Assembly: GCA_021464245.1 (NCBI GenBank)
Contig: JADCRB010000090.1
Coordinates: forward strand, 364,008-428,007
Reading direction: 5' to 3'
DNA length: 64,000 bases
Origin: Carallia brachiata
Lineage: Eukaryota > Streptophyta > Magnoliopsida > Malpighiales > Rhizophoraceae
Positions 12,633-62,164 of the stretch are shown here, one piece after another; positions within the stretch are counted from its first letter, which is position 1; each line of letters opens with the position of its first letter. The notes beneath the pieces are model-generated. The model ran no database searches. It saw nothing but the letters and a program-made list of their open reading frames with translations, and was not told the origin of the DNA. Made by a program: the position numbers and the translations under genes.

Positions 12633-12641
12633 CTTTTATAT
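12633..12641 (-). promoter_or_regulatory. TATA motif upstream of Tat-1 WOX ORF
   Basis: ATATAAAAG on the minus strand, about 90 bp before the WOX start codon. It is conserved in position and sequence in Tat-2 (38098-38106) and Tat-3 (57956-57964), so it is a candidate internal promoter. Confidence 0.55.
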
Positions 12642-12659
12642 TTTTTGGACAGTTCACAG

Positions 12660-13140: not shown

Positions 13141-13259
13141 TTTTACATATAATGTTGCTTCAGAAATTTACCATTGATCGGGTCAATTCAGATGCCTTCT
13201 TAGTTTGACAGCATGTAAGCATTGTGAGTATAGGTCTCTTGCACTAAGTATGACCCGTC

Positions 13260-15780: not shown

Positions 15781-16320
15781 TTTGGGGTGCGAAATGCCGT
15801 CAACTCCTCATCCTCTGGTGCCATCCTGATTTGGTTATAACCTGAAGAACCATCCATAAAGGATAATGCTTCGTAGCCCATTGTTGCATCGGCTGTGATC
15901 TCTGTTATGGGTAATGGAAAGTCATCTTTCGAACAGACCCTTCTAGATGTCGTGACATTGGCACATAGTGAAGGACTGGAGTGGAGCTTGAAGATGAGGC
16001 CTTCTGCGAGCGAGGTTCGGTAGGCTGTGGCAGCCTTCTATCTATCCGAGTCTGAGATTGAGCATCAATAGGGTCTTTGATAGCTTTTCCCTCTTTGTGG
16101 ATGCCCCCGGTCCAGGTAGCTTTTGAGGGAACGATCCCCGGATTGTCCGTGTCAGTGTAGAAGACTGCATCCACCAAATGTGGTTCAGCATCATCAAACG
16201 GCTTTAATCAGCATAGCTGGATTCACTTGAAGGTATAGATCCTGTCGAGGTATGAAGAGCATTGCCGAATTGGTTTTGCCAGACTTCAGTTGATTGTAAA
16301 GCTATAAGTAGTTGAGGGTT
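15781..16320 (-). pseudogene. Tat-1 RT/protease deletion scars
   Basis: Relative to Tat-2 about 110 bp of RT core are missing at 15780, and about 1 kb (RT N-terminus and linker) is missing at about 15925-15945, joining RT to the protease C-terminal linker (frame 16177-15905, DAVFYTDTDNP and ATWTGGIHKEGKA). About 0.5 kb holding the catalytic DDGSAVN region is missing at about 16210-16270. Function is lost. Confidence 0.8.
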
Positions 16321-16384
16321 AGTGATAAGAATTTGGAAAGCTTCAGGTACCTTCTTTATTGCTAACGTCATATGGTCCCTTTTT

Positions 16385-16690
16385 ACAGCGTGTCGCCTTT
16401 TATACTCGTGCGAGATAGGAGTGTTTGATTTGCTGGATTGTCGCCTTTTATACTCGTGCGAGGCAGGAGTATTAAGCTGTATCGTCGCCTTTTATACTCG
16501 TGGGAGGTAGGAGTGTTGATTGTTGGTTGCTGATCGCATTTTATACTCGTGCGAGGCAGAAGTGTTGATTGTTGGTTGCTGATCGCCTTTCATACTCGTG
16601 CGAGGCAGGAGTGTGCTGTTGAACTGCTGAGTTGCTGAACTGCTGAGTTGCTGAGCTGTTGAACTGCTGAGCTATTAAACTGTTGAGCTG
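16385..16690 (-). repeat. Tandem array of TATAAAA-bearing units in Tat-1
   Basis: Five units share, on the minus strand, the word GCACGAGTATAAAAGGCGA with small changes; they lie near 16387, 16438, 16482, 16532 and 16582. A run of CTGCTGAGTTG-type 11-bp repeats follows to 16690. A related single copy sits just upstream of the WOX ORF (CATGAGTATAAACTG, about 12658-12672). The array is absent from Tat-2 and Tat-3. Confidence 0.75.
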
Positions 16691-16699
16691 TTGAGCTGC

Positions 16700-17240
16700 T
16701 GACATGGGTTTTGATTCAAGATTTAAGTTTTGCCCCTGAATCTGAATTTGGACTTTAAGCTGACATTTGAATTGGGCTTTGAGCCCAAGTTTGAATTTAC
16801 TGGGTTTTGATTTTCGGGTTAGAATTTGGATCCAGGTTTAGAGTTTGCCCCCGAATTTGGATTTGGAACATTAGGTTAAAATTTGGGTTTGAGTTTTCAA
16901 CCCGAATTTGAGCCCAAATTTGGATTTGGGTTTTGAGCTCGATTTGAATTTGGATTTTGGGGATGGTTTCTAAACCTGCACATGAGTTTCAGACATTTTT
17001 TATTTTTTATTTTTTATTTTTATTTTTTTTCATTTTCTTTTTTTATTTTCTTCTTTTTTGTTGCTTTTCTTCTTTTTTTCTCTGTTTTTTTTACTTTTCT
17101 GCTTTTTCTTTTTTTTCTTTTTTCTCTTTGCTTTTTTTTTTTCGATTTTCATGCTTTTTTATTTTGCTTTTTTTTTTTATACATAACAATGGCTTAGAAA
17201 ATTACCGCTTGGTTGGGTTAAGTTCAGGTGAGTTTCTGTC
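16700..17240. repeat. Second copy of the TTTGG/T-tract module in Tat-1
   Basis: TTTGGATTTGGG-type words (16730-16970), a T-rich tract (16995-17180) and a tail ACATAACAATGGCTTAG followed by AAATTACCG and GGTT/AAGTTCAG words mirror, in the same order, the module at 12.66-13.2 kb. This is an internal duplication moved into the gap left by gag and protease. The Phe-rich frames here only translate the T tract. Confidence 0.6.
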
Positions 17241-17310
17241 GAAGATAGCAACTTGTTAATTTATGCTCTTGTCTAGCTGTAAAAGTTTTTGTCTTATTTT
17301 TGCAAAACAG

Positions 17311-17830
17311 GTCTTCTATGTTGGTGGTGTTGGTCATCATGACATCGGCGTTGGCAGACGATACCCCATGAGCCTGATTTTCCTAACTTGTTTCACCAGA
17401 GCGTGTTGGATTCTGCTGTTGAGAAGAATTTGATGCCCTGCCCCTAACTTGAGATGACTGAGGGTGATCTCCGCGGTTGACTGCATTAGCAGATCGGATT
17501 TGGTAATGCCTAATTTGGTGTTTTTCCTTAAGGACGACTAACTTGTTTTTTATCACATCATCTAGTTGTTGGAGAGATTGCAATTCCTGATCTAGTTCCT
17601 CCAATCCTTTGTTGAACCGTGAAATTATGCTATCCAACTCTACAAACATGTCTTCTATGCTGGCAGCGTCAGACATCATGACATCTATGTTGGTAAGTGA
17701 TGCTCTACGGAAGATTGTAGTGGAGGGTCCTTCTAATTTTTCCCAACTTGTTTCACTAGAGCGTGTTAGATTCTGCTGTTGAGCAGAATTTGATGTCCTG
17801 CCCCCAACTTCGATGGGGGTAGGTGATCGA
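17311..17830 (-). pseudogene. Tat-1 gag leader remnant with about 340-bp tandem duplication
   Basis: The words TCTTCTATG, CATCATGACATC, AACTTGTTTCAC, AGAGCGTGTT and TTCTGCTGTTGAG occur twice in order (from 17311 and from 17651). A 98-codon minus-strand frame (17679-17383) with a Leu/Glu/Gln-rich, coiled-coil-like part (EELDQELQSLQQLDD) replaces the N-terminal gag region of Tat-2. The gag core domain itself is absent. Confidence 0.6.
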
Positions 17831-18247
17831 CTCCTCCATGCGGTAAGAGAGTCAGGGGAGAGATCTTGTTACTGTGTGAGCTGTGGACTTTCTGTTTCAA
17901 TATTTTGTTGGGTTTGGATGACAAGGAATCGTGTCCTTTCGCGAGTTTGCAGGTCTACGTACCGGGATAAGGTAGTTGATGCAGGCAGTGGAGTAGTTGT
18001 CTTCTTTTTTGTGGCAGCGGTTGTACTCATATTTGACGTCATTGGTGTGCTGGACACCTGTTAGAAAATTTTCTTTTTTTTTTCTTTTTTGTTTTTCTTT
18101 TTCTCTGTTTTGTCTTTTTGTCTTTTCTTTTTCCTTTTCTTTTTTGTTTTTTTCTTTTTCTTTCGGCTTTTTTTTTTTGCTTTTTTAATTTTTTTGTTTC
18201 TTTTTACTTTTTTTTTTTTTAAGGAACAAGAGATGAGAGGTGAAGAG
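17831..18247 (-). other. Tat-1 5' leader with T-rich tract
   Basis: Homologous to the Tat-2 leader at 44.8-45.16 kb. A T-rich tract (A-rich on the sense strand) occupies 18068-18222. The Lys- or Phe-rich frames here are artefacts of the tract. Confidence 0.55.
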
Positions 18248-18265
18248 GTCTCACCGAGCGTGCCA
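18248..18265 (-). other. Tat-1 primer-binding site
   Basis: Reads TGGCACGCTCGGTGAGAC on the minus strand, six bases inside the 5' LTR. It starts TGG, as expected for pairing with a tRNA 3' CCA end, and is conserved in Tat-2 and Tat-3 with one or two changes. I cannot name the tRNA. Confidence 0.6.
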
Positions 18266-18271
18266 GAAATT

Positions 18272-19130
18272 TGTAACGAGCGTAAATGTCGAGCCTGCAA
18301 CAGTTAGACTCGAAAATGTAGAAACAAATTACAATAAAAAATTGTAAAATAAAAAGAAATTTATATGGGAATCGATCTTCGTACGGATCCTCCGATTAGC
18401 ACTCCTGTGTGATTTCGTCAAGGCCCGTGAAGGTTTGATCTTGACTGAGAGATGTTGAATTTCCACAGCGTGATCTTAAACTGTAAAAAATAGATTCCAC
18501 TAAAGGCCGAGGCTTGATCTCAGGTGGATTAGTTGAACTCCGGTGAGGGCCTTAAGAAGGCTTGATCCCATTCGAATTGATTAGATTCCGGTGAGAGCCG
18601 TAGGAGGCTTAATCCCACTAGGACTGGATGGACTCCGGTGAGGGACGTAGGAGGTTTAATCCCACTCAGATATTTAAAATTTTAATATCTTGAGTTTTTT
18701 ATCTAGTGGATACAACTTAGTGGCAGTTAGAGAGCAAACATCCAAAATATTTAGAGAGAGAGAAAGAAAGAATGCAAAGTTTTAAAAGAGAGGATTTTAC
18801 TTTGCGTGGGATGTATTGAAAGGTTTGAGGAGATGCCTATTTATAGGGTTTTGAGGGAGGATGGAGGCCAAAATCGTATGACTTGGATCATACATGGCAA
18901 TGACCCTCTTTGGTGATTGAATTTTGACATTTTGTAATCAAATGAAAATTAAAATTTACATATGATTCATTATGAGTAGGATCCTAAATGGTAAGGATTC
19001 TCTTTGATTGTTGAATTTTGATATTTTACAATCAAATGGAAATCATCATTTTCATATGTATGCACTTGTTACTTTCATATAGGGAATGAATTGATTTTTT
19101 TCTTTTTTGTGATTTTTTTTGGTGTTTACA
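18272..19130 (-). repeat. Tat-1 5' LTR
   Basis: Begins TGTAACGAGCG and ends GGTGTTTACA on the plus strand, next to the TSD CTTTT. The promoter TATA box CTATAAATAG (minus strand) is at 18837-18846. Confidence 0.9.
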
Positions 19131-35662: not shown

Positions 35663-36333
35663 TGTAAAGCGTAAATTTCGAGTCTAAAATAATTAAACTC
35701 GAAAATACAAAAATAAATTACAAATAAAAATTTAAAATAAAAGAAAATTTACGTGGGGTCGATCTCCGTAGATCCTCCGATTAGTGTTCTTTTTTTTGAC
35801 TCCGTCAAGGGATGCACGAGCTTGATCTTGACAGAAATAATTTCCACAGCTTTTTCTTGAACTGGGTTGACTGAACTGGATCTGATTTGGACGTTTTGAC
35901 TACGGTTAAGAACCGCATAGACCTAACTTGAGCCGATCTGGCTTAATTTCACCGAGGATCGAAGGGACTTGTTCTCGGATGAGCTGCCTAGATTTTGCTG
36001 AGGGCCGTATGAGGTTTAATCCCAGCCGGATTTGTAGTAATTTGATATTTTTAAGATCTATATTCTCATAAATTCAGATCTAGAGCGATCCGAGAATATA
36101 AATTTAAAAATAACTTTAGAAATGGAAATAGCAAATTTTTTGGGCCTTACCCCTGAAATATCTCTCAAAAAGGAGTTAGGAGAGTATACTGCAGAGTAAA
36201 AGCACGTAAGAAAAGGAGAAATTTTCTTAAGAGATTTTCAAAATTTTCTTTTTCTCTCAAATTCTCTGAATTTTTCTGTTTACAGATTTGCTGAATATGT
36301 TTTGAACTGGAGGGCAGGGGCCTATTTATAGGG

Positions 36334-36368
36334 TTCCTTTCCCATGTGAACATCACATGGGAAAGGAA
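36334..36368. repeat. Perfect 16-bp hairpin in U3
   Basis: TTCCTTTCCCATGTGA, loop ACA, then its exact complement. It sits just upstream of the TATA box on the element strand. The 5' LTR carries the same hairpin at about 45849-45883. Confidence 0.8.
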
Positions 36369-36396
36369 TCTTTTTAATTGAAAATATTTTTCAAAG

Positions 36397-36430
36397 TTGG
36401 CGTTGCCGACTTTGAAATCGGCAACGCCAA
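36397..36430. repeat. 13-bp GC-rich hairpin in U3
   Basis: TTGGCGTTGCCGA and its complement flank CTTTGAAA. In the 5' LTR copy (about 45912-45945) one arm base differs (GCCAA for GCCGA). Confidence 0.75.
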
Positions 36431-36472
36431 TTTTGACTTTTTTTTTTTTTTTCTTTGAAAATGATGTTTACA

Positions 36473-36486
36473 AATGCCCCCACTTC
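36473..36486 (-). other. Tat-2 polypurine tract
   Basis: GAAGTGGGGGCATT on the minus strand directly before the 3' LTR. Confidence 0.8.
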
Positions 36487-36937
36487 AAGGGTCGGTAAGA
36501 AAGATTTTTACAGAGATGATTCGAACCGAGTCTTGAAGTCCAGTTTGAAATTTGGAAACGTCCTGATGAACATTGATTATTGGAGTCTTCTAACTCTGAC
36601 TATGTCTGTTGTTGTTGGATCGCAATAGGAACCCGATACGATCTTGAGAAAGTTAGCAGCCCAGCCAATATAAAAATTGACTTTCTGGCTCCAGGTGCAT
36701 TCGAGCTTCCATAGCCCGCAAAGGATTTTTTATATGTCTTAAAGTTCCAAAGCTCTGGTGAGGATGATCCGGTAGGTAAAGAACTTGAACCTCCCCAAGA
36801 GGAAGGCCCAGCACTTCGGAACTTTAAGACCTGCGCACAGAGAGACGGGTTATGGTGATGATTCCCGAATCTGCTTCGACGTAAGGAGAGTAGTTGGAAC
36901 TTCCCTGCACGTCGTTGTATTTAGATCCAGGAGACGA
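36487..36937. other. Tat-2 non-coding DNA before the 3' LTR
   Basis: Conserved with Tat-1 11033-11403 and Tat-3 56345-56707 (for example TTGGATCGCAATAGGAA and AACTTGAACCTCCCC). No frame is shared by the three copies. Confidence 0.5.
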
Positions 36938-37129
36938 TCAGAACTTCTCGGCTCGCTGCGATAGATGTGAACTAAGGAGAAGTTGGAACTCCATGACACC
37001 GATGGCGTTGGAGAATGAGTTTCGAGGGTTTAGGGATCCCTCGAGAAGACTACTCCTTCTTTTCTTAGCTCGTGCGCCTCCAACTTCTTGATCAAAGAAC
37101 TTCCTGAGACAAGTGCAGAGACTAGCCAT
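36938..37129 (-). CDS. Conserved small ORF (Tat-2)
   Basis: A 63-codon frame from ATG 37129 starts MASLCTCLRKFFDQEV and continues with a basic AKKRRSS stretch. It is the counterpart of the 95-codon frame in Tat-1. Frame-changing indels shorten and alter its C-terminal part. A TATATATA-like stretch lies about 65 bp upstream (37181-37190). No recognised domain. Confidence 0.4.
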   Translation of the reverse strand: MASLCTCLRKFFDQEVGGARAKKRRSSLLEGSLNPRNSFSNAIGVMEFQLLLSSHLSQRAEKF

Positions 37130-37307
37130 TTTCTTTTGAGAAAGAAGAGCTGAGGGGTGAGTATTATACTCGGGAATGCAAGATATATATACATACGATA
37201 AAGGTTTTTTTTTTTTTTTTGAAAAGTCAAAAAGAAGGTACGCAGAATCGAGTAGGGTCCTCCACGTCCTTTCCTGCATAAGAGACAAAAGAGCAGCGGC
37301 TGACGCG

Positions 37308-37392
37308 TGTCACGAAAGTCGTTACCGTGTGTTCAGAAGTCGTTGCCGTGTGCTGCAGAAGTCGTTACCGTGTGCTGCCAAAGTCGTTGCAC
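37308..37392. repeat. 22-bp tandem repeat after the WOX ORF (Tat-2)
   Basis: AAGTCGTTACCGTGTGCTGC-type units occur three times, then a partial unit. Tat-1 has one unit at 11877-11910, Tat-3 has three. Confidence 0.8.
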
Positions 37393-37410
37393 CTTATCTT
37401 GTCGGCCGTC

Positions 37411-38010
37411 CTAGCGGGGCCCGAGGCGCAGCTCCAAGTCAAGCTCGACCTCGTCTGGTGGGCGATGATGTTGACGTCGCTTTCCGGCTGGTTGATGCTG
37501 CCGGAATATTCTGGAAAGAGAGGCAAAGTTTCGCCGGAATGACTCCTTTCTGTAGAAAAATTCCTCCTAGACTTAAGTACTAGGAGGGATGAACCCTTGG
37601 CTGACTCCGTAAGACCACCAGGACCAGCATGCATGCTCCCATGGGCTACGGCTTTGATGATACCTGAAGAGACCATTGCAGTGGAGAACTCGGACCTGCT
37701 TCATTTGAGGCGAAGTTGTACCGTGGGATCTACCATCGGAACGCAGACTGTTCTTTGGAAAAATCAGCTCTCAGTGCTGGTTTCTTCCTGCTTCTCCGAT
37801 TCTGGAACCAATAAAACACATTTTTTCCTTCGATTGCCCCGAGGGGCGCAATCGTGAGACAAGTTGGTAAATCTGAGATGCATTAGGCATAATACCTCCA
37901 TTGTTGTGGAAGACTTCCTCCAAAATTTGCAGTTGTGCCATGGTTGGTTGCCACCTTGTGCGGGGTGACCTTTCTTCTCCCTTGTCTTGAGGTTCTGCAA
38001 CTGGTTCCAT
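37411..38010 (-). pseudogene. WUSCHEL/WOX-type homeobox ORF captured in Tat-2
   Basis: Begins at ATG 38010 (MEPVAEP) and ends at TAG 37411. The homeodomain starts RTRWQPTMAQLQILEEVF and continues GGIMPNASQIYQLVSRLRP. A 1-nt deletion at about 37842 then shifts the frame, and the recognition helix (FYWFQNRRSR) lies in the new phase. A second indel near 37740 is shared with Tat-3. The C-terminal part carries a perfect WUS box in SGETLPLFPEYSG (TLPLFP at 37512-37529). Another 1-nt loss near 37465 removes the EAR-type LxLxL tail from that frame. In the WUS clade these elements mediate DNA binding and TOPLESS-type repression. Tat-1 and Tat-2 differ enough to show long residence in the element family. 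Confidence 0.85.
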
Positions 38011-38097
38011 CTTTCTTGTGGCAGAGGAGCAAAGGTCTGGTGTGTGGTGAAGATCGGTTGAGACTGATGCTGAGTTTCAGACTCAAACCCTCCGTTG

Positions 38098-38106
38098 CTT
38101 TTATAT
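38098..38106 (-). promoter_or_regulatory. TATA motif upstream of Tat-2 WOX ORF
   Basis: ATATAAAAG, about 90 bp before ATG 38010, at the same place in all three elements. Confidence 0.55.
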
Positions 38107-38149
38107 TTTTGGGCCGTTCACAGTTTATACTCATGCGGGCCAGGAGTTG

Positions 38150-38461
38150 GATTGGATTTTGAACTTGGGTTTTGGACTGTGTCTGGAACTTGGAATTTTT
38201 GGGTTTTGGGCTTTGAATTGGATTTGGGTTGAGTGTTTGGGCTTCTAGACTTGGATTTTTGGATTTGGGTCGAGTGTTTGGGTTTGGACTTTTGGATTTG
38301 GGTTGAGTATTTGGGTTTTGAGTCTAGACTTAGTTTTTAGGTTTTTGAGTTGGGCTTGAGTTGGGCTCAAGTGTTTGGGTTTGGATTTTCGGGTTTGGAT
38401 TTTCGCTTGGACTTTCAGATCGGGACTTCCGAACTTTTTTTTTTTTTGATTTTTTTTTTTT

Positions 38462-38517
<56 letters not shown>

Positions 38518-38545
38518 ATTTTTTTTTTAAACATATTTACACATA
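38150..38545. repeat. TTTGG-word minisatellite and long T tract, Tat-2
   Basis: Units of GGATTTGGGTTGAGTGTTTG type run from about 38180 to 38400. A nearly pure T tract with rare GA interruptions covers 38436-38530. It separates integrase from the WOX ORF. Confidence 0.8.
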
Positions 38546-38686
38546 ATATGTTTCAGAAATTTACCATTGATTGGGCCGATTCGGACGCCTTCTTGGTCTG
38601 ACAGCATGTAAGCGTTGTGAGTGTAGGCCTCCTGCACTAGTATGGCCCGTCCCATTTGGAAGTAAGCTTGTCACCAGGCCGATGCT

Positions 38687-39640
38687 TCATGTTGATGGGC
38701 CGTCGCACTGCAAGAACAAGGTCTCCAACTTGAAAAGATCGAGGGCGGACCCTGCGGTTGAACGTGTTGGTGAGCCGGGCTTGGTAGCACTCAAGTTGCT
38801 GTTGTGCTTCGAGCCTCCTTTCATCGAGGCTTCTAACTCATCCAGACGTAGGCGAGCATTCTCCTCCTGTGTGAGTCCTTCCAGAACAGCCATGCGCAGG
38901 GATGGAATCTGTGTTTCCAACGGCAGTATTGCTTCGACACCGTAGACAAGTGAGTATGGCGTCGCCTGTGTTGGAGTCCGGTAAGTTGTACGATACGCCC
39001 ATAATGCCTCCGGAATTCTGTCATGCCAATCTCTTTTGGATTTAGAGACTACCTTCCGCAACAGGTTGCATAAGGTCTTGTTGAATGCTTCGGCCAAGCC
39101 ATTTGCTGGGGCATTGTACATGGATGACTTGTACTGCTTGAACTTGAACTTCTCGCAGAGCTTGTCGATTAAGCTGTTGTAGAACTGCTTACCATTATCA
39201 GTGATGATGAATCGAGGGACTCCATAGCGATAGATCAGCTGAGTCCGGATGAAATTGGCAACATGCTCCTTCTTTACCTCTCTAAGTGGAATGGCTTCAG
39301 CCCATTTTGAGAAGTAGTCGGTTGCTGCGAGGATGTACAGGTGACCCAGGGATGACTTTGGCAAGGGCCCCACTAAGTCGAGACCCCAAGCTTCAAAGGG
39401 CCAGGATGAGACAGTTGGATGCAGTGGCTCCGGTGGTTGATGTATGTAATTGCATGAAATTGACAAGCTTGACAAGTTTTAGCAAACTCAATGAATCACG
39501 TACCATGGTTGGCCAGTAGTATCCCATCCTTCTGAGTTGGAAGTGCAACTTAGGCCCTGATTGATGTCCGCCACAAACACCAGAATGTGCTTCAGTGAGA
39601 GCCTGTTTTGCCTCTTCATTGCTAGGCAGCGAAGTAAACT
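38687..39640 (-). pseudogene. Tat-2 integrase
   Basis: The catalytic core is open from 39475 to 38687. It has GLDLVGPLPKSSLG and ATDYFSKWAEAIPL with the first catalytic Asp, FIITDNGKQF with the second, and NGLAEAFNKT with the catalytic Glu. LWAYRTTYRTPTQ and YGVEAILPLE words and a GPY/F-like tail follow. The upstream HHCC zinc region (SGVCGGHQSGPKLHFQLRR; CQACQFH coded near 39460-39480) is split by two 1-nt losses that Tat-3 shares. Confidence 0.88.
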
Positions 39641-39712
39641 CCATCAAAAGACCTTCGATACAGAGCATCCTTGAGATATATGAAGCGGGGAGCTCGTCGT
39701 TGAATTTCTGTC

Positions 39713-41194
39713 TTATGACGACGATCTTCGGCAGCTTCCCGTGCTGTAGGTAGTCAATGATTGGTTGGCGCCAATCTCGTCCTCCGCGAGACGTACAGAT
39801 ACAGCGTTGGCTGCTGTAGTTTCTTCATCATCCTTCTGTGGCACTATCCATTTCTGGCATACGGCAACAACTGTAGCCTGGATTTCTGACTTTGCAAGAG
39901 AAGTGGCCAGGTTAGCCAACGCGTCTGCCTGAGTGTTTTCTCGTCGAGGCACATGCTCCAAGGTGATGCTTTCAAATTCATCCATTAGCTGTCGAGCACG
40001 TTGATGGTAAGGCGCAAGGTCCTCTTTCTTCACATCATACAATCCTGTAAGTTGGTTGATGACGAGCTGGGAATCTCCATGGACTTCTATAGTTGGAATC
40101 TTCATATCGACAGCCATTTGAAGACCAATGATCAAAGCCTGGTATTCAGCAACATTATTTGAACATAACTCACCGAGAATGATAGCATATGGTAGTATTT
40201 GTCGTTGAGGAGTGACAAACACTATGCCGGCACCAGCACCATCACGCCTTGCTGCACCATCAAAGAACATCGTCCATGGTGGCAGTGTCTCAATGTAAAA
40301 GACCTCTTCATCTGGAAGATCATCTGTGAACTCCCAATCTGACGGAACAGGGTGATCTGCAAGGAAGTCTGCTAGAGCTTGTCCTTTGACTGCTTTTTGA
40401 GGCACGTAGACAATGTCGTAGCTTTGTAGGATTACTGCCCACTTGGCAAGTCGTCCTGACAAGATTGGTCTAGATAAGATATATTTGACAGGATCAGCTC
40501 TGGCAATGAGACGTACCGTGTGAGCTTGCATGTAGTGCCTCAGCTTGTCAATGGCAAAGAACAGTGCTAGACATGTCTTTTCAATGGGCGAATAACTCAG
40601 CTCCGGACCGTTTAGTGTTCTGCTCAAGTAGTACAGGGCAACTTCCTTTCCCTGCTCGTTTTCCTGTGCAAGCAAGGCTCCCAAAGATCTTTCCTGCGCT
40701 GCAATGTAGAGAATCAACGACTTTCCTTGAATTGGAGCACCTAGGACCGGTGGATTGGAAAGGTACTTCTTTATGCTCTCAAAGGCTTTGCTGCAAGCTT
40801 CGTCCCACTCGAAGTTGACATCCTTCTTCATCAACCGATGGAAAGGTTGACATCTCCCAGCTAAATTGGAGATGAAACGGCGAATGTAGGCCAGCTTTCC
40901 TTGTAGACTTCGCAGCTCGTGCAGGTTTTTAGGTTCAGGCATCTTTTGAATTGCCTCAACCTTTGACTGATCAACTTCGATTCCACGATGGCGCACCACG
41001 AACCCAAGAAACTTTCCTGATGTGACACCGAATGCGCACTTGAGAGGGTTCATTTTGAGCTGATGCCTCCGAAGTCTTTCGAACACTGTCTTGAGATCCT
41101 CGAGGTGGTCTTTGCGCTTCTTAGTCTTTACAACTAAGTCATCAACATAACATTCTACAATCTTGTGCAGCATGTCATCAAAAATTTTTTGCAT
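39713..41194 (-). CDS. Tat-2 RT palm end, RNase H and archaeal-type RNase H
   Basis: A 493-codon open frame. YVDD at residues 16-19 is the RT catalytic block. The connection with LHELRSLQGKLAYIRRF follows. Residues about 155-280 form the standard RNase H region (LYIAAQERSLGALLAQE, SPIEKTCLALFFAIDKL). Residues about 303-435 form a second RNase H with the acidic set D312 in FDGAA, E350 in NVAEYQAL, D374 in HGDSQLV and D424 in TQADALAN. This double RNase H marks the Tat lineage of Ty3/gypsy. The frame is cut at its start by the shared RT frameshift near 41215 and at its end by a 1-nt loss near 39780. Confidence 0.88.
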   Translation of the reverse strand: MQKIFDDMLHKIVECYVDDLVVKTKKRKDHLEDLKTVFERLRRHQLKMNPLKCAFGVTSGKFLGFVVRHRGIEVDQSKVEAIQKMPEPKNLHELRSLQGKLAYIRRFISNLAGRCQPFHRLMKKDVNFEWDEACSKAFESIKKYLSNPPVLGAPIQGKSLILYIAAQERSLGALLAQENEQGKEVALYYLSRTLNGPELSYSPIEKTCLALFFAIDKLRHYMQAHTVRLIARADPVKYILSRPILSGRLAKWAVILQSYDIVYVPQKAVKGQALADFLADHPVPSDWEFTDDLPDEEVFYIETLPPWTMFFDGAARRDGAGAGIVFVTPQRQILPYAIILGELCSNNVAEYQALIIGLQMAVDMKIPTIEVHGDSQLVINQLTGLYDVKKEDLAPYHQRARQLMDEFESITLEHVPRRENTQADALANLATSLAKSEIQATVVAVCQKWIVPQKDDEETTAANAVSVRLAEDEIGANQSLTTYSTGSCRRSSS

Positions 41195-41857
41195 AGCACG
41201 TTGATAAGTGGCGCCAGCATTTTTAATCCAAACGGCATAACTTTGTAGCAGTATATACCTTTTGGGGTGCGGAATGCTGTCAACTCCTCGTCTTCTGGTG
41301 CCATTCTGATTTGGTTATAGCCTGAAGAACCATCCATGAAGGACAATGCTTCGTGACCCGTTGTTGCATCGACTGTGATCTCCGTTATGGGCAACGGAAA
41401 GTCATCTTTCGGGCAGGCCTGTTAAGATCTCGAAAATCAACACATACCCTCAACTGTCCATTCTTCTTTCTTACCGGGACAATGTTGGCAATCCACGTTG
41501 GGTAGGTGACCTCTCGGATGAAGCCAGCATTGATCAGCTTGTTACCTCCTCCTCGATTTGTGGAATGAGTTCCGGGCGGAACCGTCGTTGTGGCTGCTTG
41601 ACAGAACGAACACCCTTCTTTACTGCTAGACGATGCACCGCAATTTTTGGGTCAAGTCCAGGCATTTCTTTGTAACTCCATGCGAACACGTCCCTGTATT
41701 GACTTAATACCTGAACATATTCTTGCTCTTCTTCTGCAGTAAGTAAAGCACTTACAAATGTAGGTCGAGGATCTTCCGGAGAGCCAAGATTGACCTCCTT
41801 GAGTTCATCAACAGTTGCTTGGCCACCATCTTCAAGTTCCGGGGGAGCCTCCTTCAC
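41195..41857 (-). pseudogene. Tat-2 RT N-terminal part, frameshifted
   Basis: The frame at 41857-41534 holds the pre-RT part (YRDVFAWSYKEMPGLDP). The frame at 41394-41155 holds DGSSGYNQIRMAPEDEE and TPKGIYCYKVMPFGLK. Losses near 41535, 41425 and 41215 break the chain. The last one removes a base from an A run just after FGLK and is present at the same place in Tat-3. Confidence 0.85.
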
Positions 41858-43422
41858 TTCACCATCTGATGAGTCGACTCAGCCTCCTCGCTAATTGTGA
41901 CATGAAATGCAAAACCTCTGACTTCACCTTCTTTGTTTGACTGGATAAGCCTGTCTTGTTTGGTGGTGGTGGTGATGGCACGTGCATCAGCTGCTCGGCT
42001 TCGGCTCTTTAGCGTGATCCGCACAGGTGACTTCTCCTGATAGCCTAAGCCAGGTCGGGACTGTGATGATTGAGAAGCGGCGCCATGTGTGGACAGCGTA
42101 CCCATTGTGCTCGGGTTTGAGAAGTCATAGCCCGCCTTTGCCAAAAGCTTGTATGCATTAGGATCAAATCCTTCATGTGTTCTTCTTTCTGGAAGTGAGC
42201 CGCCTTCGACTGCCCCCGTGTGTGGTTTGACGAAGCCTTTTAATGGTTTTGAGACAAAACCGGCTCAATCTTTGGTATCGGCAGAGTGTAAGTCTCCTTC
42301 AGGTTGTGCAGCTCCTTTGTTTTGGGTTGGCTATGACCTTGCTCCTGTTTAAGATCAATACAATAAGAGAAAGGGGGTTGACCTTCTGAGCGTCGTGACT
42401 TCGGCACATAGCGTAGGACTGGAGTGGAGCTTGAAGATGCAACATCCTTCGGACGAAGTTCAGCAGGCTGTGGCAGCTTTTCATTTGTTGGAGCCTGGGT
42501 TGGCATTGGCAGGTTCTTCGACAGCTTTTCCCTTTTTGTGGATGCCCCCAGTCCAAGTAGCTTTTGATGGAATGATCTCCGGATTGTCTGTGTCGGTGTA
42601 GAAGACTGCATCCGCCAAATGTGATTCAGCATCATCGAACGGCTTTAAGTCAGCATTGACCTTTTGAACGCCACCATTGTAGTACTTGAAGCACTGATGC
42701 AGGCTTGAGAGCACAACTCCATTTCCATGAATCCACGGTCGTCCTAGCAACATCTTATATGTGGTACGTGCATCAATCACGTGAAATAGAGTGCTAGAAG
42801 TGAGATTACCGATAGTTAGCTCCAAGCGAATCATCCCAATTGCTTTCTGTCCTCCTTGATTAAAGCCATGAATCATCAAGCGGCTGTCTGATAATTCATC
42901 AATGCCGATGCCGAGCTCCTTTATGGTGGATTTTGGGATAATATTGACTGCCGAGCCATCGTCGATCAGAATACGTCGGACCTTCTGCTCTTTTACATAG
43001 CCTGATACATACAGCGGCCGATTGTGGGGTTTGGACCCCAGCAGGAGATCCTCATCTGAAAATGAGATAGCAGAGTAACATCCGACGTGATTTTGGTCCG
43101 CCTGTTGCTCCGCTGAGTTAGAATCATTTGATGGCTGTGATTCAGCTGAGGTCTGGAGAGTATTGCTGACTTGATTTTGCCACACTTCTGTTGATTGCAA
43201 AGCTATAAACAGCTGAGGGTTAGCGAGAAGGGTTTGGAGAGCTTCATATACCTTCTCCGTTGTCGACTTTTTGTTGTCGAGCGGCTCCTCCTTATGGTGT
43301 GTCACTTCTTCTGATGGTTTTGAAGTGATGGTGGTCTGGTTTGCAGAAGTTATGCCTTCCTGGTCCAGAATGATTTTATTCTGGCTTTGAGCTTCATGAT
43401 TAGCTCCTTCAGGACGAAACAC
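41858..43422 (-). pseudogene. Tat-2 aspartic protease and linker
   Basis: The 313-codon frame 43422-42481 contains the retropepsin region: VRRILIDDGSAVNIIPKS gives the active site (DDGSA in place of the usual D-T/S-G), and LGRPWIHGNGVV is the flap-end word. The protease cleaves the Gag-Pol chain. A low-complexity linker to RT (42480-41858) is broken by several indels. Tat-1 has lost the catalytic part, and Tat-3 has lost all of it. Confidence 0.82.
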
Positions 43423-44999
43423 TTCTCGGTTGGATGACTTACTATCCGGTGATATTTGCAGAATCTCGGATCGCTGACTCGATCCTTTTCATTCGGCCGC
43501 TTGCACTCTGGGAGTTCGATCAGCTTCGCCTCCAAGAGTTGTTCAAGAATGTCGGGGACGTCTGAGTCGGGGAATGGATACTGCTTCTGCTCCAACTCTC
43601 GCAATGTCACCTTCCGCCTTTCCTGTTGTTTTGGCTGAGTTATTTGGGTCGGAGGATTTACCTTAGCTTTGGCGCCCACTTTTACTGGTGCGGCTTCAAC
43701 AGTCATCACTTCTTTTCCTTTTCCGGAGCTGTTGGGTTTCTTAATCTCCCTTCTGCCCCCTTGCTGGTCCAACTGGATGGGAACCGTGCCTCCGGAAGTC
43801 TGGATGCTTATCTCCATATCATGTGCGCGGGTCGCCAGTTCTTCGAAAGTTCGGGGTTTGACACCCTGCAGGATGTATAACAGCTCCCAATGCATTCCCT
43901 GGATGCACATCTCCACGGCAGAAGTCTCCGTCAGGCGATCTTTGCAGTCCAAGCTGAGGGCACGCCATCTGTTGATGTATTCGACAACGGGCTCTCCTTT
44001 CCTTTGTTTGGTGCTGGTAAGCTCCATCATACTTACCGTCCTTCGAGTGCTGAAAAATCTGTTGAGGAACTCTCGTTGTAGCTGTTCCCAACTGTCGATC
44101 GATTCTGGTTCAAGATTTATGAACCAGGTGAAAGCGGTCTCCCTGAGTGAACGAACAAACTGCTTCACCAAGAGATCTCCATAAGTCCCTGCGTTGTTGC
44201 AGGTTTCAACGAAGTGGGCGATGTGCTGTTTGGGATCGCCTCGTCCGTCGAATTGTTGAAATTTGGGCGGCTGGTAGCCCAAGGCATGTTGAGACTTTCG
44301 ATCCGTCTGGTGTACGGTTTGACGTACATCTGTGATCCTTGGAAGGATGTAGCTTGTTGCAGTCGGATCGTATTGGCTATCATTTCCTGCAATTGTTGAA
44401 CAGATAGCGAAGCTACAGAATTTGAGGGTGGCAGCTGTGTAGAACTACCTGGTCGCTTTTCTGCAGGGAAGACGTCGGCTGGTGTGGCTTCTGGAGTGAA
44501 ACCGGGTGGATATGGTTGCTCCTCGCGGATTTCGGGATCAATTGGATCGGGGCTTTCCTTTGAGAGCGCGATCTGTTGATCTTTTTCCTCCACGACTCTG
44601 ATCAGCTGCAAAATTTTGTTCTCCAATTCTGAAATTTTTCCTCTGTGCTGGTTGTGTTGGTCATCATGACGGCAACAGATGAGGCTCCGGGAAAGACTGG
44701 GGGAGAAAACTCTTCTGATTCTTCTGTGTGAGTCGGATTTGTTGAGCAGGCTTCGTCGTGTTGCCCCCGACTTCGATCGGGGTGGGTGATCGACTCCTCC
44801 ATGCGGCAAGAGAGTCAGGGGAGAGATCCTGTTGTGCAGCTGTGGACTCTCCATTTCGAATTTTGTCGGGTTTGGACGGCAAGAAATTGTGTCCGTCCCC
44901 GGGTTTCTGGACCTGCGTACCCAGGTAGGGTAGTTGATGCAGGCAATGGAGCCGTTGCCTTCTTTTTGTGGCAGCAGTTGTACTCCTTTTCGGTGCCAT
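43350..44999 (-). pseudogene. Tat-2 gag, frameshifted
   Basis: The likely start is ATG 44999 (MAPKRSTTAATKRR). The main domain is the 310-codon frame 44282-43350, with FQQFDGRGDPKQHIAHFVE, FINLEPESIDSWEQLQREFL and QGMHWELLYILQGVKP, typical of the Ty3/gypsy gag retrotransposon domain. It ends in a Cys/His-type word (CKYHRIVSHPTEKCFVLK) as in Tat elements. At least one base is missing near 44285, and further shifts lie at 44.6-44.85 kb. Gag forms the particle in which reverse transcription occurs. Confidence 0.85.
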
Positions 45000-45161
45000 T
45001 TGATGTGCTGAACACCTGTAAATTTTTTTTTTTTTTTTTTACTTTTTACTTTTTACTTTTTTTTTACTTTTTACTTTTTTTTTGACTTTTTTTTTTTTCT
45101 CTCGGCTCCCCTTTTACCTCTTTTTTTTTTTTTTTAAGGAACAAGAGATGGGAGGTGAAGT
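45000..45161 (-). other. Tat-2 5' leader
   Basis: T-rich on the plus strand (45019-45135) with repeated ACTTTTT words. Untranslated leader between primer-binding site and gag. Confidence 0.6.
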
Positions 45162-45179
45162 GTCCCACCGAGCGTGCCA
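45162..45179 (-). other. Tat-2 primer-binding site
   Basis: TGGCACGCTCGGTGGGAC on the minus strand, six bases inside the 5' LTR, identical in Tat-3. It does not match the initiator-methionine site and I cannot assign the tRNA. Confidence 0.65.
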
Positions 45180-45185
45180 AAAATT

Positions 45186-45985
45186 TGTAAAGCGTAAATT
45201 TCGAGTCTAAAAAATTAAACTCGAAAATACAAAAATAAATTACAAATAAAAATTGTAAAATAAAAGAAAATTTACGTGGGGTCGATCTCCGTAGATCCTC
45301 CGATTAGTGTTCCTTTTTTGACTCCGTCAATGCACGAGCTTGATCTTGACAGAAATAATTTCCACAGCTTTTTCTTGAACTGGGTAGACTGAACTGGATC
45401 TGATTTGGACGTTTTGACTACGGTTAAGAACCGCAGAGACCTAATCTGAGCCGATCTGGCTTAATTTCACCGAGGGTCGAAGGGACTTGTTCTCGGATGA
45501 GCTGCCTGGATTTTGCTGAGGGCCGTATGAGGCTTAATCCCAGCCGGATTTGTAGTAATTTGATATTTTTAGATCTATATTCTCATAAATTCAGATCTAG
45601 AGCGATCCGAGAATATAAATTAAAAATAACTTTAGAAATGGAAACAGCAAATTTTTTGGGCTTACCCCTGAAATATCTCTCAAAAAGGAGTTAGGAGAGT
45701 ATACTGCAGAGTAAAAGCACGTAAGAAAAGGAGAAATTTTCTTGAGAGATTTTCAAAATTTTCTTTTTCTCTCAAATTCTCTGAATTTTTCTGTTTACAG
45801 ATTTGCTGAATATGTTTTGAACTGGGGGGCAGGGGCCTATTTATAGGGTTCCTTTCCCATGTGAACATCACATGGGAAAGGAATCTTTTTAATTGAAAAT
45901 ATTTTTCAAAGTTGGCGTTGCCAACTTTGAAATCGGCAACGCCAATTTTGACTTTTTTTTTTTTTCTTTGAAAATGATGTTTACA
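45186..45985 (-). repeat. Tat-2 5' LTR
   Basis: Near-identical partner of 35663-36472. The promoter TATA box CTATAAATAG on the minus strand is at 45837-45846, downstream of the two hairpins on the element strand. Confidence 0.92.
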
Positions 45986-55699: not shown

Positions 55700-56330
55700 T
55701 GTAAAGCGTAAATTTCGAGCCTAAAATAATTAAACTCGAAAATACAAAAGTAAATTACAAATAAAAATTGTAAAGTAAAAGAAAATTTACGTGGGGTCGA
55801 TCTCCGTAAATCCTCCGATTAGTGTTCCTTTTTTGACTCCGTCAAGGGCTGCACGAGCTTGATCTTGACAGAAATAATTTTCACCGCTTTTTCTTGAACT
55901 GGATAGACTGAAACTGTGTCTGATTTGGACGTTTTGACTACGGTTATGAACCGCAGAAATCTGATCTGAGCCGATCTGACTTAATTTCACCGAGGGTCGA
56001 ATGGACTTGTTCTTGGATGAGTTGCCTGGATTTTGCTGAGGGCCGTATGAGGCTTAATCCCAGCCAGATTTGTAATATTTTGATTTTTTTTTTCTTTTTT
56101 TTTTTCGCTTCGCTGCCTATTCTGCGCTTTTTTTTTTTTTTTTCTTTTTTCTTCTTCTGCCTGCTTTTGCTGGCTCCCCTCTGCATTTCATTCAATTGGG
56201 GAGGCCATTTATAGGCCTCCCCCATGCCTGCCTGCCACCAACCAAATGGTTGGTGGCATTAATTAGGTTGGCGGCTACCAACCATATAATATATATTTTT
56301 TTTTTTTTTATAAAATTCGATTAGTTTACA
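55700..56330 (-). repeat. Tat-3 3' LTR
   Basis: Begins TGTAAAGCGTAAATTTCGAG and ends TTAGTTTACA. A hairpin GCCACCAACCA/TGGTTGGTGGC is at 56234-56257. The U3 half is unrelated to Tat-2. Confidence 0.92.
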
Positions 56331-56344
56331 AATGCCCCCACTTC
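56331..56344 (-). other. Tat-3 polypurine tract
   Basis: GAAGTGGGGGCATT on the minus strand beside the 3' LTR, identical to Tat-2. Confidence 0.8.
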
Positions 56345-56707
56345 AAGGGTCGGTAAGAAAGATTTTTTACAGAGATAATTCGAACCGAGTCTTGAAGTCT
56401 AGTTTGAAATTTGGAAAGTCCTGATGAACATTGAATCTTGGAGTCTTCTATCTTTGACCATGCCTGCTGTTGTTGGATCGCAATAGGAACCCGATACGAT
56501 CTTGAGAAAGTTAGCAGCCCAGCCAATATAAAAATTAACCTTCTGGCTCCAGGTGCATTCGAGCTTCCATAGCCCGCAAAGGATTTTTTATATGTCTTAA
56601 AGTTCCAGAGCTCTGGTGAGGATGATCCGGTAGGTAAAGAACTTGAACCTCCCCAAGAGGAAGGCCCAGCACTTCGGAACTTTAAGACCTGCGCACAGAG
56701 AGACGGG

Positions 56708-56980
56708 TTATGGTGATGATTCCCGAATCTGCTTCGACGTAAGGAGAGTAGTTGGAACTTCCCTGTACACGCTGCATTGTAGATCCAGGACGAAGCTTCT
56801 CGCTCGTGGTAGATGTGAACTAAGGAGAGTAGTTGGAACTCCATGACACCGATGGCGTTGGAGACTGAGTTTCGAGGGTTTTAGGGATCCCTCGAGAAGA
56901 CTACTCCTTCTTTTCTTAGCTCGTGCGCCTCCAACTTCTTGATCGAAGAACTTCCTGAGACAAGTGCAGAGACTAGCCAT
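56708..56980 (-). pseudogene. Conserved small ORF (Tat-3)
   Basis: The start MASLCTCLRKFFDQEV (ATG near 56980) reads on through a basic stretch, with a C-terminal part that differs from Tat-2 because of indels. It ends SKQIRESSP as in Tat-1. A longer frame upstream (to 57238) reads through non-coding DNA. Function unknown. Confidence 0.4.
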
Positions 56981-57165
56981 TTTCTTTTGAGAAAGAAGAG
57001 CTGAGGGGTGAGTATTACAACTCGAGAATGCAAGATATATATACATACGATAAAGTTTTTTTTTTTTTTTTTTTGAAAAGTCAAAAAGAAGGTACGCAGA
57101 ATCGAGTAGGGTCCTCCACGTCCTTTTCTTGCATAAGAGACAAAAGAGGCAGCGGCTGACGCGTG

Positions 57166-57248
57166 TCACGAAAGTCGTTACCGTGTGTTGCAGAAGTCGT
57201 TGTCGTGTGCTGCAGAAGTCGTTACCGTGTGCTGCCAAAGTCGTTGCA
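57166..57248. repeat. 22-bp tandem repeat after the WOX ORF (Tat-3)
   Basis: Three AAGTCGTTACCGTGTGCTGC-type units and a partial one, as in Tat-2. Confidence 0.8.
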
Positions 57249-57267
57249 CCTTATCTTGTCGGTCGTC

Positions 57268-57868
57268 CTAACGGGGCCCGAGGCGCAGCTCCAAGTCAAG
57301 CTCGACCTCGTCTGGTGGGCCGATGATGTTGACGTCGCTTTCCGGCTGGTTGATGCTGCCGGAATATTCTGGAAAGAGAGGCAAATTTCGCCGGAATGAC
57401 TCCTTTCTGCTAGAAAAATTCCTCCTAGACTTAAGTACTAGGAGGGATGAACCCTTGGCTGACTCCGTAAGACCACCAGGACCAGCATGCATGCTCCCAT
57501 GGGCTACGGCTTTGATGATACCTGAGAGACCATTGCAGTGGAGAACTCGGACCTGCTTCATTTGAGGGCGAAGTGTACCGGTGGGATCTACCATCGGAAC
57601 GCAGACTGTTCTTTGGAAAAATCAGCTCTCAGTGCTGGTTTCTTCCTGCTTCTCCGATTCTGGAACCAATAAAACACATTTTTTCCTTCGATTGCCCCGA
57701 GTGGGCGCAATCGTGAGACAAGTTGGTAAATCTGAGATGCATTAGGCATAATACCTCCATTGTTGTGGAAGACTTCCTCCAAATTTGCAGTTGTGCCATG
57801 GTTGGTTGCCACCTTGTGCGGGGTGACCTTTCTTCTCCCTTGTCTTGAGGTTCTGCAACTGGTTCCAT
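57268..57868 (-). pseudogene. WUSCHEL/WOX-type homeobox ORF captured in Tat-3
   Basis: ATG 57868 to TAG 57268. A 1-nt loss near 57782 in helix 1 shifts the frame. After it the homeodomain is open through GGIMPNASQIYQLVSRLRP and IEGKNVFYWFQNRRSR, the best-preserved recognition helix of the three copies. An indel near 57600, shared with Tat-2, and a further local one break the middle. The C-terminal frame has NLPLFPEYSG (WUS box, one residue off) and keeps an intact EAR-type LDLELRLG tail just before the stop. The Tat-2 copy is broken at different homeodomain and tail positions. Confidence 0.85.
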
Positions 57869-57955
57869 CTTTCTTGTGGCAGAGGAGCAAAGGTCTGGTG
57901 TGTGGTGAAGATCGGTTGAGACTGATGCTGAGTTTCAGACTCAAACCCTCCGTTG

Positions 57956-57964
57956 CTTTTATAT
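57956..57964 (-). promoter_or_regulatory. TATA motif upstream of Tat-3 WOX ORF
   Basis: ATATAAAAG about 90 bp before ATG 57868. Confidence 0.55.
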
Positions 57965-58009
57965 TTTTGGGCCGTTCACAGTTTATACTCATGCGGGCCA
58001 GGAGTTGGA

Positions 58010-58412
58010 TTGGATTTTGAACTTGGGTTCTGGACTGTGTTGGAACTTGGAATTTTTGGGTTTTGGGCTTTGATTGGATTTGGGTTGAGTGTTTGGGCTT
58101 GGATTGGATTTTTGGATTTGGGTTGAGTGTTTGGGTTTGGATTGGATTTTTGGATTTGGGTCGAGTGTTTGGGTTTGGACTTTTGGATTTGTTTGAGTGT
58201 TGGGTTTTGGCTTAGGTTTGTGTTTCTGAATTGGGCTCAAGTGTTTGGGTTTGGATTTTTGGGTTTGGATTTTCGCTTGGACTTTCAGATCGGGACTTCC
58301 GAACTTTTTTTTTTTTTTTTTTGATTTTTTTGATTTTTTTTTTTTTTTTTTTTTTTTTTTATTTTTTTGATTTTTTTTTTTTTTTTTGATTTTTTTGATT
58401 TTTTTTTTTCAA
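58010..58412. repeat. TTTGG-word minisatellite and T tract, Tat-3
   Basis: TTGGATTTGGGTTGAGTGTT-type units (58070-58280) and T-rich DNA with GA interruptions (58304-58410). Unit number differs from Tat-2. The Pro/Lys/Asn/Gln-rich minus-strand frame here translates the repeat. Confidence 0.8.
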
Positions 58413-58570
58413 ACATATTTACACATAATACTGTTTCAGAAATTTACCATTGATTGGGCCGATTCGGACGCCTTCTTGGTCTGACAGCATGTAAGCGTTG
58501 TGAGTGTAGGCCTCCTGCACTAAGTATGGCCCGTCCCATTTGGAAGTAAGCTTGTCACCAGGCCGATGCT

Positions 58571-59500
58571 TCATGTTGATGGGCCGTCGCACTGCAAGAA
58601 CAAGGTCTCCAACTTGAAAAGATCGAGGGCGGACCCTGCGGTTGAACGTGTTGGTGAGCCGGGCTTGGTAGCACTCAAGTTGTGTTGTGCTTCGAGCCTC
58701 CTTTCATCGAGAGCTTCTAACTCATCCAGACGTAGGCGAGCATTCTCCTCCTGTGTGAGTCCTTCCAGAACAGCCATGCGCAGGGATGGAATCTGTGTTT
58801 CCAACGGCAGTATTGCTTCGACACCGTAGACAAGTGAGTATGGCGTCGCCTGTGTTGGAGTCCGGTAAGTTGTACGATACGCCCATAATGCCTCCGGAAT
58901 TCTGTCATGCCAATCTCTTTTGGATTTAGAGACTACCTTCCGCAACAGGTTGCATAAGGTCTTGTTGAATGCTTCGCCAAGCCATTTGCTGGGGCATTGT
59001 ACATGGATGACTTGTACTGCTTGAACTTGAACTTCTCGCAGAGCTTGTCGATTAAGCTGTTGTAGAACTGCTTACCATTATCAGTGATGATGAATCGAGG
59101 GACTCCATAGCGATAGATCAGCTGAGTCCGGATGAAATTGGCAACATGCTCCTTCTTTACCTCTCTAAGTGGAATGGCTTCAGCCCATTTTGAGAAGTAG
59201 TCGGTTGCTGCGAGGATGTACAGGTGACCCAGGGATGACTTTGGCAAGGGCCCCACTAAGTCGAGACCCCAAGCTTCAAAGGGCCAGGATGAGACAGTTG
59301 GATGCAGTGGCTCCGGTGGTTGATGTATGTAATTGCATGAAATTGACAAGCTTGACAGTTTTAGCAAACTCAATGAATCACGTACCATGGTTGGCCAGTA
59401 GTATCCCATCCTTCTGAGTTGGAAGTGCAACTTAGGCCCTGATTGATGTCCGCCACAAACACCAGAATGTGCTTCAGTGAGAGCCTGTTTTGCCTCTTCA
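58571..59500 (-). pseudogene. Tat-3 integrase
   Basis: Nearly identical to Tat-2 integrase, including the two 1-nt losses in the zinc region. It also has a private 1-nt loss near 58976 that breaks the frame at the catalytic Glu segment (NGLAEAF), and another near 58682 in the C-terminal part. Confidence 0.87.
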
Positions 59501-59504
59501 TTGC

Positions 59505-60717: not shown

Positions 60718-60743
60718 CCGATGGAAAGGTTGACATCTCCCAG

Positions 60744-61868: not shown

Positions 61869-62140
61869 CAGCTGCTCGGCTTCGGCTCTTTAGCGTGATC
61901 CGCACAGGTGACTTCTCCTGATAGCCTAAACCAGGTCGGGACTGTGATGTTTGAGAAGCAGCTCCATGTGTGGACGGCAGCGTACCCATTGTGCTCGGGT
62001 TTGAGAAGTCATAACCCGCCTTGGCCAAGAGCTTGTATGCATTAGGATCGAATCCTTCATGTGTTCTTCTTTCTGGAAGTGAGCCGCCTTCGACTGCCCC
62101 CGTGTGTGGTTTGACGAAACCTTTTAATGGTTTTGAAGAT
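61869..62140 (-). pseudogene. Tat-3 protease-RT linker remnant and gag/protease deletion joint
   Basis: Frame 62028-61741 (MAKAGYDFSNP) matches the Tat-2 linker. At about 62137-62140 the sequence jumps from linker DNA straight to the primer-binding site, so gag and protease are absent. Confidence 0.8.
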
Positions 62141-62158
62141 GTCCCACCGAGCGTGCCA
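62141..62158 (-). other. Tat-3 primer-binding site
   Basis: TGGCACGCTCGGTGGGAC on the minus strand, identical to Tat-2. Confidence 0.65.
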
Positions 62159-62164
62159 AAAATT

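Follow-up and report, generated by a model that had tools for sequence, protein, structure and literature searches.

Can a plant retrotransposon carry a gene for a stem-cell regulator, and if so, what would the element gain from it? This question is raised by a stretch of 64,000 nucleotides from Carallia brachiata (hereafter, the window), in which a preliminary description, made from the sequence alone, had reported a WUSCHEL/WOX homeobox gene captured by a family of Tat-type elements. The comparisons presented here indicate that the capture is old, and that the gene has probably been retained by this Tat-lineage family as an accessory transcription-factor gene.

The elements of the window

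Self-BLAST revealed three Tat-lineage Ty3/gypsy copies, T1, T2 and T3, each on the minus strand. Together with the comparison of the LTRs, it placed T1 at 10161..19130 (3' LTR 10161-11016, 5' LTR 18270-19130), T2 at 35663..45985 (3' LTR 35663-36473, 5' LTR 45185-45985), and T3, which is young and internally deleted, at 55700..62833 (3' LTR 55700-56330, 5' LTR 62165-62833). The LTR divergence K is 0.134 for T1, as against 0.015 for T2 and 0.018 for T3, in agreement with the earlier distinction of one old and two young elements. Inspected by eye, the LTR ends read TG...CA, with the exception of the far end of T1, which reads TA; 5-bp TSDs were recognized in T3 (GTGTC), in T1 (AAAAG), and in three copies from elsewhere in the genome (L012, L013, L020; see below), and a perfect 5-bp TSD was sought by eye in L015, L016 and T2 and found in none of them.

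The coding regions of T2, all on the minus strand, are consistent with this lineage. Pfam recognized gag in the ORF at 43353..44444 (Retrotrans_gag, E 3.5e-15), RT, RNase H and a second RNase H in the ORF at 39716..41314, and the integrase core in the ORF at 38690..39478 (rve, PF00665, E 6.3e-11), while a weak aspartic protease match in the ORF at 42484..43488 stayed below the Pfam cut-off. A second RNase H (aRH) beside the RT-linked one is a hallmark of Tat, according to the available part of PMC6317226. Both RT_RNaseH and RVT_3/RNase_H were matched in the single T2 ORF, the latter at approximately 39905-40264 (limits derived from residues 351-470), and the integrase follows, which bears out the assignment to Tat made earlier. 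The order gag - PR - RT - RH - INT between the LTRs, with PR below cut-off, is also that expected for Tat. The best match of T2 pol is a Cucumis melo protein with 73% identity.

The WOX gene is located 3' of the integrase, in sense orientation, ahead of the 3' LTR. The whole stretch from pol to the 3' LTR measures about 2.2 kb in T2, versus 2.9-6.6 kb in the Retand survey (PMC11963269, available part). In the interval between integrase and WOX gene, all three elements also contain low-complexity repeats spaced by about 13 bp (38331-38552 in T2, 58201-58422 in T3 and 12945-13141 in T1).

Apart from the elements, the window includes a diverged host duplication of about 80-89% identity (7821-10079 / 30642-33017, 19133-24050 / 33200-48441 and 24293-26107 / 51302-53148), one copy of which is interrupted by T2; the duplication thereby preserves the empty site of T2 and an approximate one for T1. 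The duplicated host copy runs uninterrupted across the insertion point of T2 at 21606-21612 (self-BLAST). Five short ORFs are present in the duplicated stretch 19133-24050, and a Copia-like fragment, recognized by eye, and a fragment with a Pfam match to Transposase_32 that stays under the cut-off lie at 26744-27151 and 49336-49803.

The WOX gene in T1, T2 and T3

The interval 37411..38010 (minus strand), to which the preliminary description had drawn attention, is exactly the ATG-to-stop span of the T2 WOX gene, 600 nt long and with its frame broken by deletions. Its homeodomain is split over two frames at 37769..37959 (both pieces recognized by Pfam, the outer limits derived from the ATG), with helix 3 at 37788-37816, and is followed by a WUS box TLPLFP at 37513..37529 and by an EAR-type motif LDLEL at 37430..37443, the last two located by motif reading and all of them on the minus strand. 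The T1 gene (11922..12545, minus strand) is 624 nt long and has a single in-frame stop in helix 3, and the T3 gene (57268..57868, minus strand; 601 nt) is again broken by deletions, some of them common with T2. The order homeodomain, WUS box, EAR motif between integrase and 3' LTR, as previously reported, is present in all three elements, with the WUS box of T1 altered to TSPLFL.

The homeobox nature of the gene, for which a profile search had been proposed, was confirmed by Pfam Homeodomain matches to pieces of all three copies, with E values of 7.6e-9 for the T3 piece, 1.8e-5 for T1, whose stop was replaced by X, and 7.7e-6 and 8.5e-4 for the two T2 pieces in different frames, the latter value falling short of the curated cut-off. 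In the PDB, the T3 piece matched the homeodomains of WUSCHEL (E 2.7e-13) and STENOFOLIA (E 4.4e-12).

It had also been stated that each element has a sense ORF of about 200 codons. The gene is there in each, and in sense, but in none is the frame uninterrupted: that of T1 is open apart from the helix-3 stop, and T2 and T3 have several frame-breaking deletions of 1-5 bases each, so that the motifs first cited for them sit in different frames. Some private single-base deletions fall within homopolymer runs and may be assembly errors. T2 and T3, whose insertion sites differ, have in common deletions that disrupt the frame after the homeodomain; their parent was therefore already broken and was still mobilised, which means that the gene is dispensable in cis.

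Copies across the genome

The assembly to which the window belongs (337.5 Mb, 164 contigs) was searched for further copies. A helix-3 32-mer found 663 matches with up to 3 mismatches, and its reversed control 0; an integrase 32-mer, which may match relatives without WOX as well, found 773, and its control 0. Of the 100 exact integrase sites listed, at least 48 are followed on the same strand, after 1026-1261 bp, by an exact helix-3 site; this is a minimum, since mismatched WOX sites are left out of the listing. A chance resemblance to a homeobox was ruled out by the Pfam and PDB matches and by the 663 versus 0 helix-3 matches.

In a Pfam Homeodomain search of the genome, 150 of 1348 candidates were scored, 78 of which, by our own count, had nearly equal scores of 49.5-49.6 bits. 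Twenty copies, each with a 229-aa stop-to-stop frame, were fetched from those 78. All 20 belong to the element, and 18 encode a clean 207-aa protein, the C-terminal frames of L009 and L011 being altered. The protein is identical in 10 of the 20, so that many of the open frames trace to one recent burst. A second set of 20 stretches gave eight more element copies (L031-L033, L036-L040) and 12 host WOX genes. A search with the 207-aa protein yielded 2319 candidates, 150 of which were scored. Each of these matches the query with 86-100% identity along 186 or more of its 207 aa; 115 of the 150 are stop-free within the match and 35 contain at least one stop (own count). The gene is thus carried by genome-wide copies, and is not a local peculiarity of the three in the window, a point on which the preliminary description had asked for a check.

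The fetched stretches, up to 10 kb long, show a 3' LTR after the WOX gene in 20/20 cases, and both LTRs are visible in six of them, as they are in T1, T2 and T3. For these six (L028, L015, L012, L016, L013, L020), the LTR divergence K ranges from 0.0031 to 0.0225. With the rice substitution rate of 1.3e-8 per site and year, the six young copies date to 0.1 to 0.9 million years and T1 to about 5 million years. L052, in which the WOX gene is intact and 624 nt long as in T1, branches between T1 and the other copies. In the young derivatives L012, L013, L015, L016 and L028 the gag stretch is absent or replaced, and the WOX frame is open; the sequence in place of gag in L015 showed by eye merely low-complexity or unremarkable frames.

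It should be considered whether these are host genes after all, either a WOX expansion with elements inserted into or beside it, or a domesticated gene derived from the element. The genome does have an ordinary-looking set of host WOX genes, including two WUS genes, but an element LTR follows the gene in every fetched stretch, nine copies (the six above and those of the window) have both LTRs, T2 has its empty site, and the helix-3 matches stand beside a comparable crowd of integrase matches. An expansion of host genes was ruled out by the flanking LTRs and by the T2 empty site, and we consider any version of this explanation exceedingly improbable.

The encoded protein and its donor

The intact element protein of 207 aa comprises a homeodomain (Pfam E 2.3e-12), a WUS box (TLPLFP) and a C-terminal EAR motif (LDLEL), in the layout M(E/K)P...TRWQPTMAQLQILEEVFHNN..., homeodomain, Ser/Pro-containing stretch, ETLPLFP, and C-terminal LDLEL(H/R)LGP. 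In a PDB search with the A2 profile, the best matches were WUSCHEL (1.1e-16) and STENOFOLIA (2e-14). The profile-profile match between element and WUS alignments spans the homeodomain alone, the WUS box and the EAR motif being assigned by motif reading. Among 25 aligned copies, TLPLFP, which is invariant in 15 WUS orthologues, is present in 17 and LPLFP in 20, and 24 have the EAR core LDLEL. Both the WUS box and the part that EAR plays in TOPLESS recruitment are described in the available parts of PMC9781121 and PMC6788696. The element C-terminus LDLEL(H/R)LG is a general EAR (LxLxL) that departs from the form L[DE]L[ST]LN of WUS orthologues.

Searches of 5.8 billion proteins returned members of the same family. 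The A2 search gave WOX-family homeodomain proteins among its 25 matches, three of which (P0023 from Asimina, P0024 from Hordeum, and P0025) look intermediate-clade by their homeodomain, the rest being modern-clade; the best 120 of the 443 matches of the A3 search were headed by WUSCHEL orthologues, with a Hibiscus protein at the top (82 bits). The best WUS match of the element protein has 43% identity over half of the query. No annotated element-borne relative from other plants was recognized in the 25 A2 matches or in the best 120 of the 443 A3 matches, a null result that carries little weight, as repeat masking usually hides genes of this kind. Of 42 pattern matches in IMG/VR, none was confirmed.

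When 41 homeodomains are compared in a tree, all element copies fall into one clade, which has a long stem and a support of 100/100. A tree of 56 homeodomains (T1 left out; 66 columns) recovered the element clade with 99/100 and placed it on the modern side of a 96/92 branch, apart from WOX9, WOX11-like and WOX13. The tree with host WOX genes that had been suggested as a test of capture therefore yields one clade of element copies nested within the WOX family.

In the preliminary description, the recognition helix NRRSR had been judged closer to WOX11/12-type members, and the donor possibly an unusual WOX. Helix 3 does read NRRSR, and NVFYWFQNR, found in 23 of the 25 aligned copies, is the intermediate-clade signature, the modern-clade signature NVFYWFQNH not being matched (PMC6788696, available part). 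Nevertheless, tree, spacing and C-terminal motifs all give the modern clade: the placement in the tree is that just described, the element homeodomain shares with WUS a spacing of 66 residues, as against 65 in the WOX9 and WOX11-like rows, and the same source, as far as its available text goes, lists the WUS box as a modern-clade feature and gives a C-terminal EAR for WUS, WOX5 and WOX7 (PMC6788696). A WOX11/12-type donor, from the intermediate clade, is accordingly regarded as very improbable.

Within the modern clade, the best tree joins the element with WOX2, at a support of 36/23, and the alternative of element plus WUS differs from it by a delta lnL of 0.18 (AU p 0.346). WUS would be favoured over WOX2 by the exact TLPLFP, by the C-terminal EAR, and by the WUS-type spacing, which one WOX2, from Spinacia, also has. 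Since the letters of the EAR motif are not those of WUS and helix 3 is of the intermediate-clade type, the gene is filed here as a WUS-clade WOX and not as a WUS orthologue.

The host WOX genes, named from sequence, are two WUS genes (L034, L035), WOX5, two WOX4, two WOX1, WOX2, WOX3, WOX9 and two WOX13. Host WUSb is identical to Erythroxylum novogranatense WUS at all but 1 of the 66 homeodomain positions and groups with it at 100/92, which would point to a host in the Malpighiales close to Erythroxylaceae. Like angiosperm WUSCHEL, the element protein has a WUS-spaced homeodomain, TLPLFP and a C-terminal EAR-type motif, but host WUSa (L034) is a protein of 308 aa encoded by three exons with two GT-AG introns, and its helix 3 reads NHKAR, whereas the element gene encodes 207 aa, reads NRRSR and is intron-free. 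The lack of introns, as compared with the two in host WUS, would fit the capture of a spliced transcript. On the whole, Pfam, the genome copies and the nested clade support the capture of a WOX gene by the Tat family.

A putative promoter

A TATA box, TATAAAAGC, lies 95 nt upstream of the WOX ATG in each of the three window copies, at 38097..38105 in T2, 12632..12640 in T1 and 57955..57963 in T3 (all on the minus strand), and may mark an internal promoter. It is found 95-96 nt before the ATG in 24 of the 26 genome copies with placeable start and flank, and is absent from the other two, L031 and L033. Between T1 and a young copy, 44 of the 50 bp directly upstream of the gene are identical, and 38 of 50 in the segment around the TATA box. 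As to the context of the ATG, position -3 is A in all six copies considered (T1, T2, T3, L017, L024, L026), and the +4 base is G or A, since the protein begins with MK in 10 of the 20 fetched copies. The fixed spacing of the TATA box and the ATG context speak for a putative transcription unit of the gene's own.

Selection on the gene

Codon models were fitted to 25 copies, namely 24 that had been picked because their frames are open, and T1, in which the stop was masked. The whole gene has an omega of 0.68 (2 delta lnL 11.6 versus omega 1), and a smaller run on 19 partly masked sequences gave 0.69 (2 delta lnL 7.9). Pairwise NG86 omegas fall below this, at 0.33-0.60 for the more distant pairs; the value of 0.68 from the transition-biased codon model is preferred. 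The signal is concentrated in the homeodomain, with an omega of 0.395 (2 delta lnL 17.5) and an estimate of 0.25 on inner branches, while the C-terminal part, at 0.81, did not depart significantly from 1 (2 delta lnL 2.3) in the same 25 copies. Models that gave the T1 path, the inner branches and the end branches omegas of their own fitted hardly better. The homeodomain is therefore under purifying selection in copies chosen as open.

These values have to be weighed against the simplest alternative, that the WOX gene was captured by chance, is useless to the element, and owes its open frames to the recent amplification of one intact parent. Several observations are in its favour: T2 and T3 stem from a parent with a broken gene, half of the fetched copies encode one identical protein, the C-terminal omega is near 1, and T1 and a young copy are no more similar in nucleotide sequence over the gene than over the non-coding stretch that follows it. 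Against it stand the homeodomain omega and the matches that are stop-free even at 87-91% protein identity, and also in L052. In addition, the coding indels between T1 and intact L017 are all multiples of three (2/2, or 3/3 in another alignment), as against 3/16 in the flanks, and the gag-less young derivatives retain an open WOX gene. We consider a mere passenger unlikely. Our reading is that the DNA-binding part is constrained, that the remainder is relaxed, and that the gene is not required in cis.

What the protein may do

The sequence of events that we favour is as follows. A Tat-lineage Ty3/gypsy family would have taken up a WUS-clade WOX gene in spliced form, presumably via RNA, in sense orientation between integrase and 3' LTR, before the insertion of T1 (K 0.134, about 5 million years). 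The gene would have been retained through the later bursts of the family and would now serve as an accessory transcription-factor gene, probably transcribed from an internal promoter rather than from the LTR alone. Its predicted product is a nuclear homeodomain protein that would act in trans and recruit TOPLESS-type co-repressors by its EAR motif and WUS box. The least certain step is the benefit: the element might gain by shifting the host cell to a meristematic, proliferating state in which insertions become heritable. That the WUSCHEL-type protein pushes or holds cells of the shoot meristem, the source of the germline, in a stem-cell-like condition is conceivable, but doubtful.

It is also conceivable that the protein binds the LTR or the internal promoter of its own element and times its transcription, in the manner of retroviral accessory regulators, with no action on host development. 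The measurable selection sits on the DNA-binding domain, in keeping with this, and LTR elements and retroviruses offer a precedent in their nuclear accessory proteins (PMC11963269, available part). However, of eight WUS-type motifs, none occurred above shuffled expectation in six LTRs, and we regard self-regulation, too, as conceivable but doubtful. The DNA specificity may have shifted with the changes in helix 3, so that the motif search in the LTRs could miss sites. Beside action on the meristem, self-regulation and no action at all, other regulatory roles make up the remainder.

Comparison with known elements

No description of a WOX-bearing retrotransposon was found in the open-access PMC literature, subscription papers and preprints being outside the scope of the search. 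That plant LTR retrotransposons can capture host genes is itself known, from Bs1 and from the orchid AlkB elements. For the YgdH domain of Citrus gypsy elements, the source study is reportedly Steinbauerova 2011.

In PMC9289625, 121 angiosperm genomes were screened and 15 extra domains counted, and neither 'homeo' nor 'wuschel' occurs in the available part of its text; 'homeo' does not occur in that of PMC13317346 either. Among the systems covered by the former, the Phalaenopsis Ty3/gypsy elements have captured an AlkB-type m6A demethylase, which differs from the present case in being an RNA-modifying enzyme and not a developmental transcription factor, and in a different host (PMC9289625, available part). 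The Citrus gypsy elements have a YgdH (LONELY GUY-type) domain, a relative of cytokinin-control genes, but this accessory too is an enzyme, unlike WOX (PMC9289625, available part). Retand shares with our family the Tat lineage, an additional coding region between pol and 3' LTR, and a suspected DNA binding; its TRP28, however, is antisense and is not described as a copy of a host gene, whereas the ORF here is sense and a WOX, and in the available part of the survey no known domain is given for any sense ORF in the same region of its Retand clusters (PMC11963269). Maize Bs1 is likewise an LTR retrotransposon that has transduced parts of host genes, but it carries pieces of three genes, with a full-length ORF in none (PMC13317346, available part). 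What is new with respect to the literature searched is a developmental master regulator, with DNA-binding and repressor motifs, present in several hundred copies of which more than 100 are readable.

Such copies call for caution in counting the WOX gene family of related species. If they are expressed, a stem-cell-type regulator resides in mobile DNA and far outnumbers the two WUS genes of the host, and whether retrotransposons manipulate plant meristems becomes a directly testable question. Should the action on the meristem prove true, then, taken together with the LONELY GUY-type domain of the Citrus elements, the capture of meristem regulators would be a recurrent strategy of plant retrotransposons.
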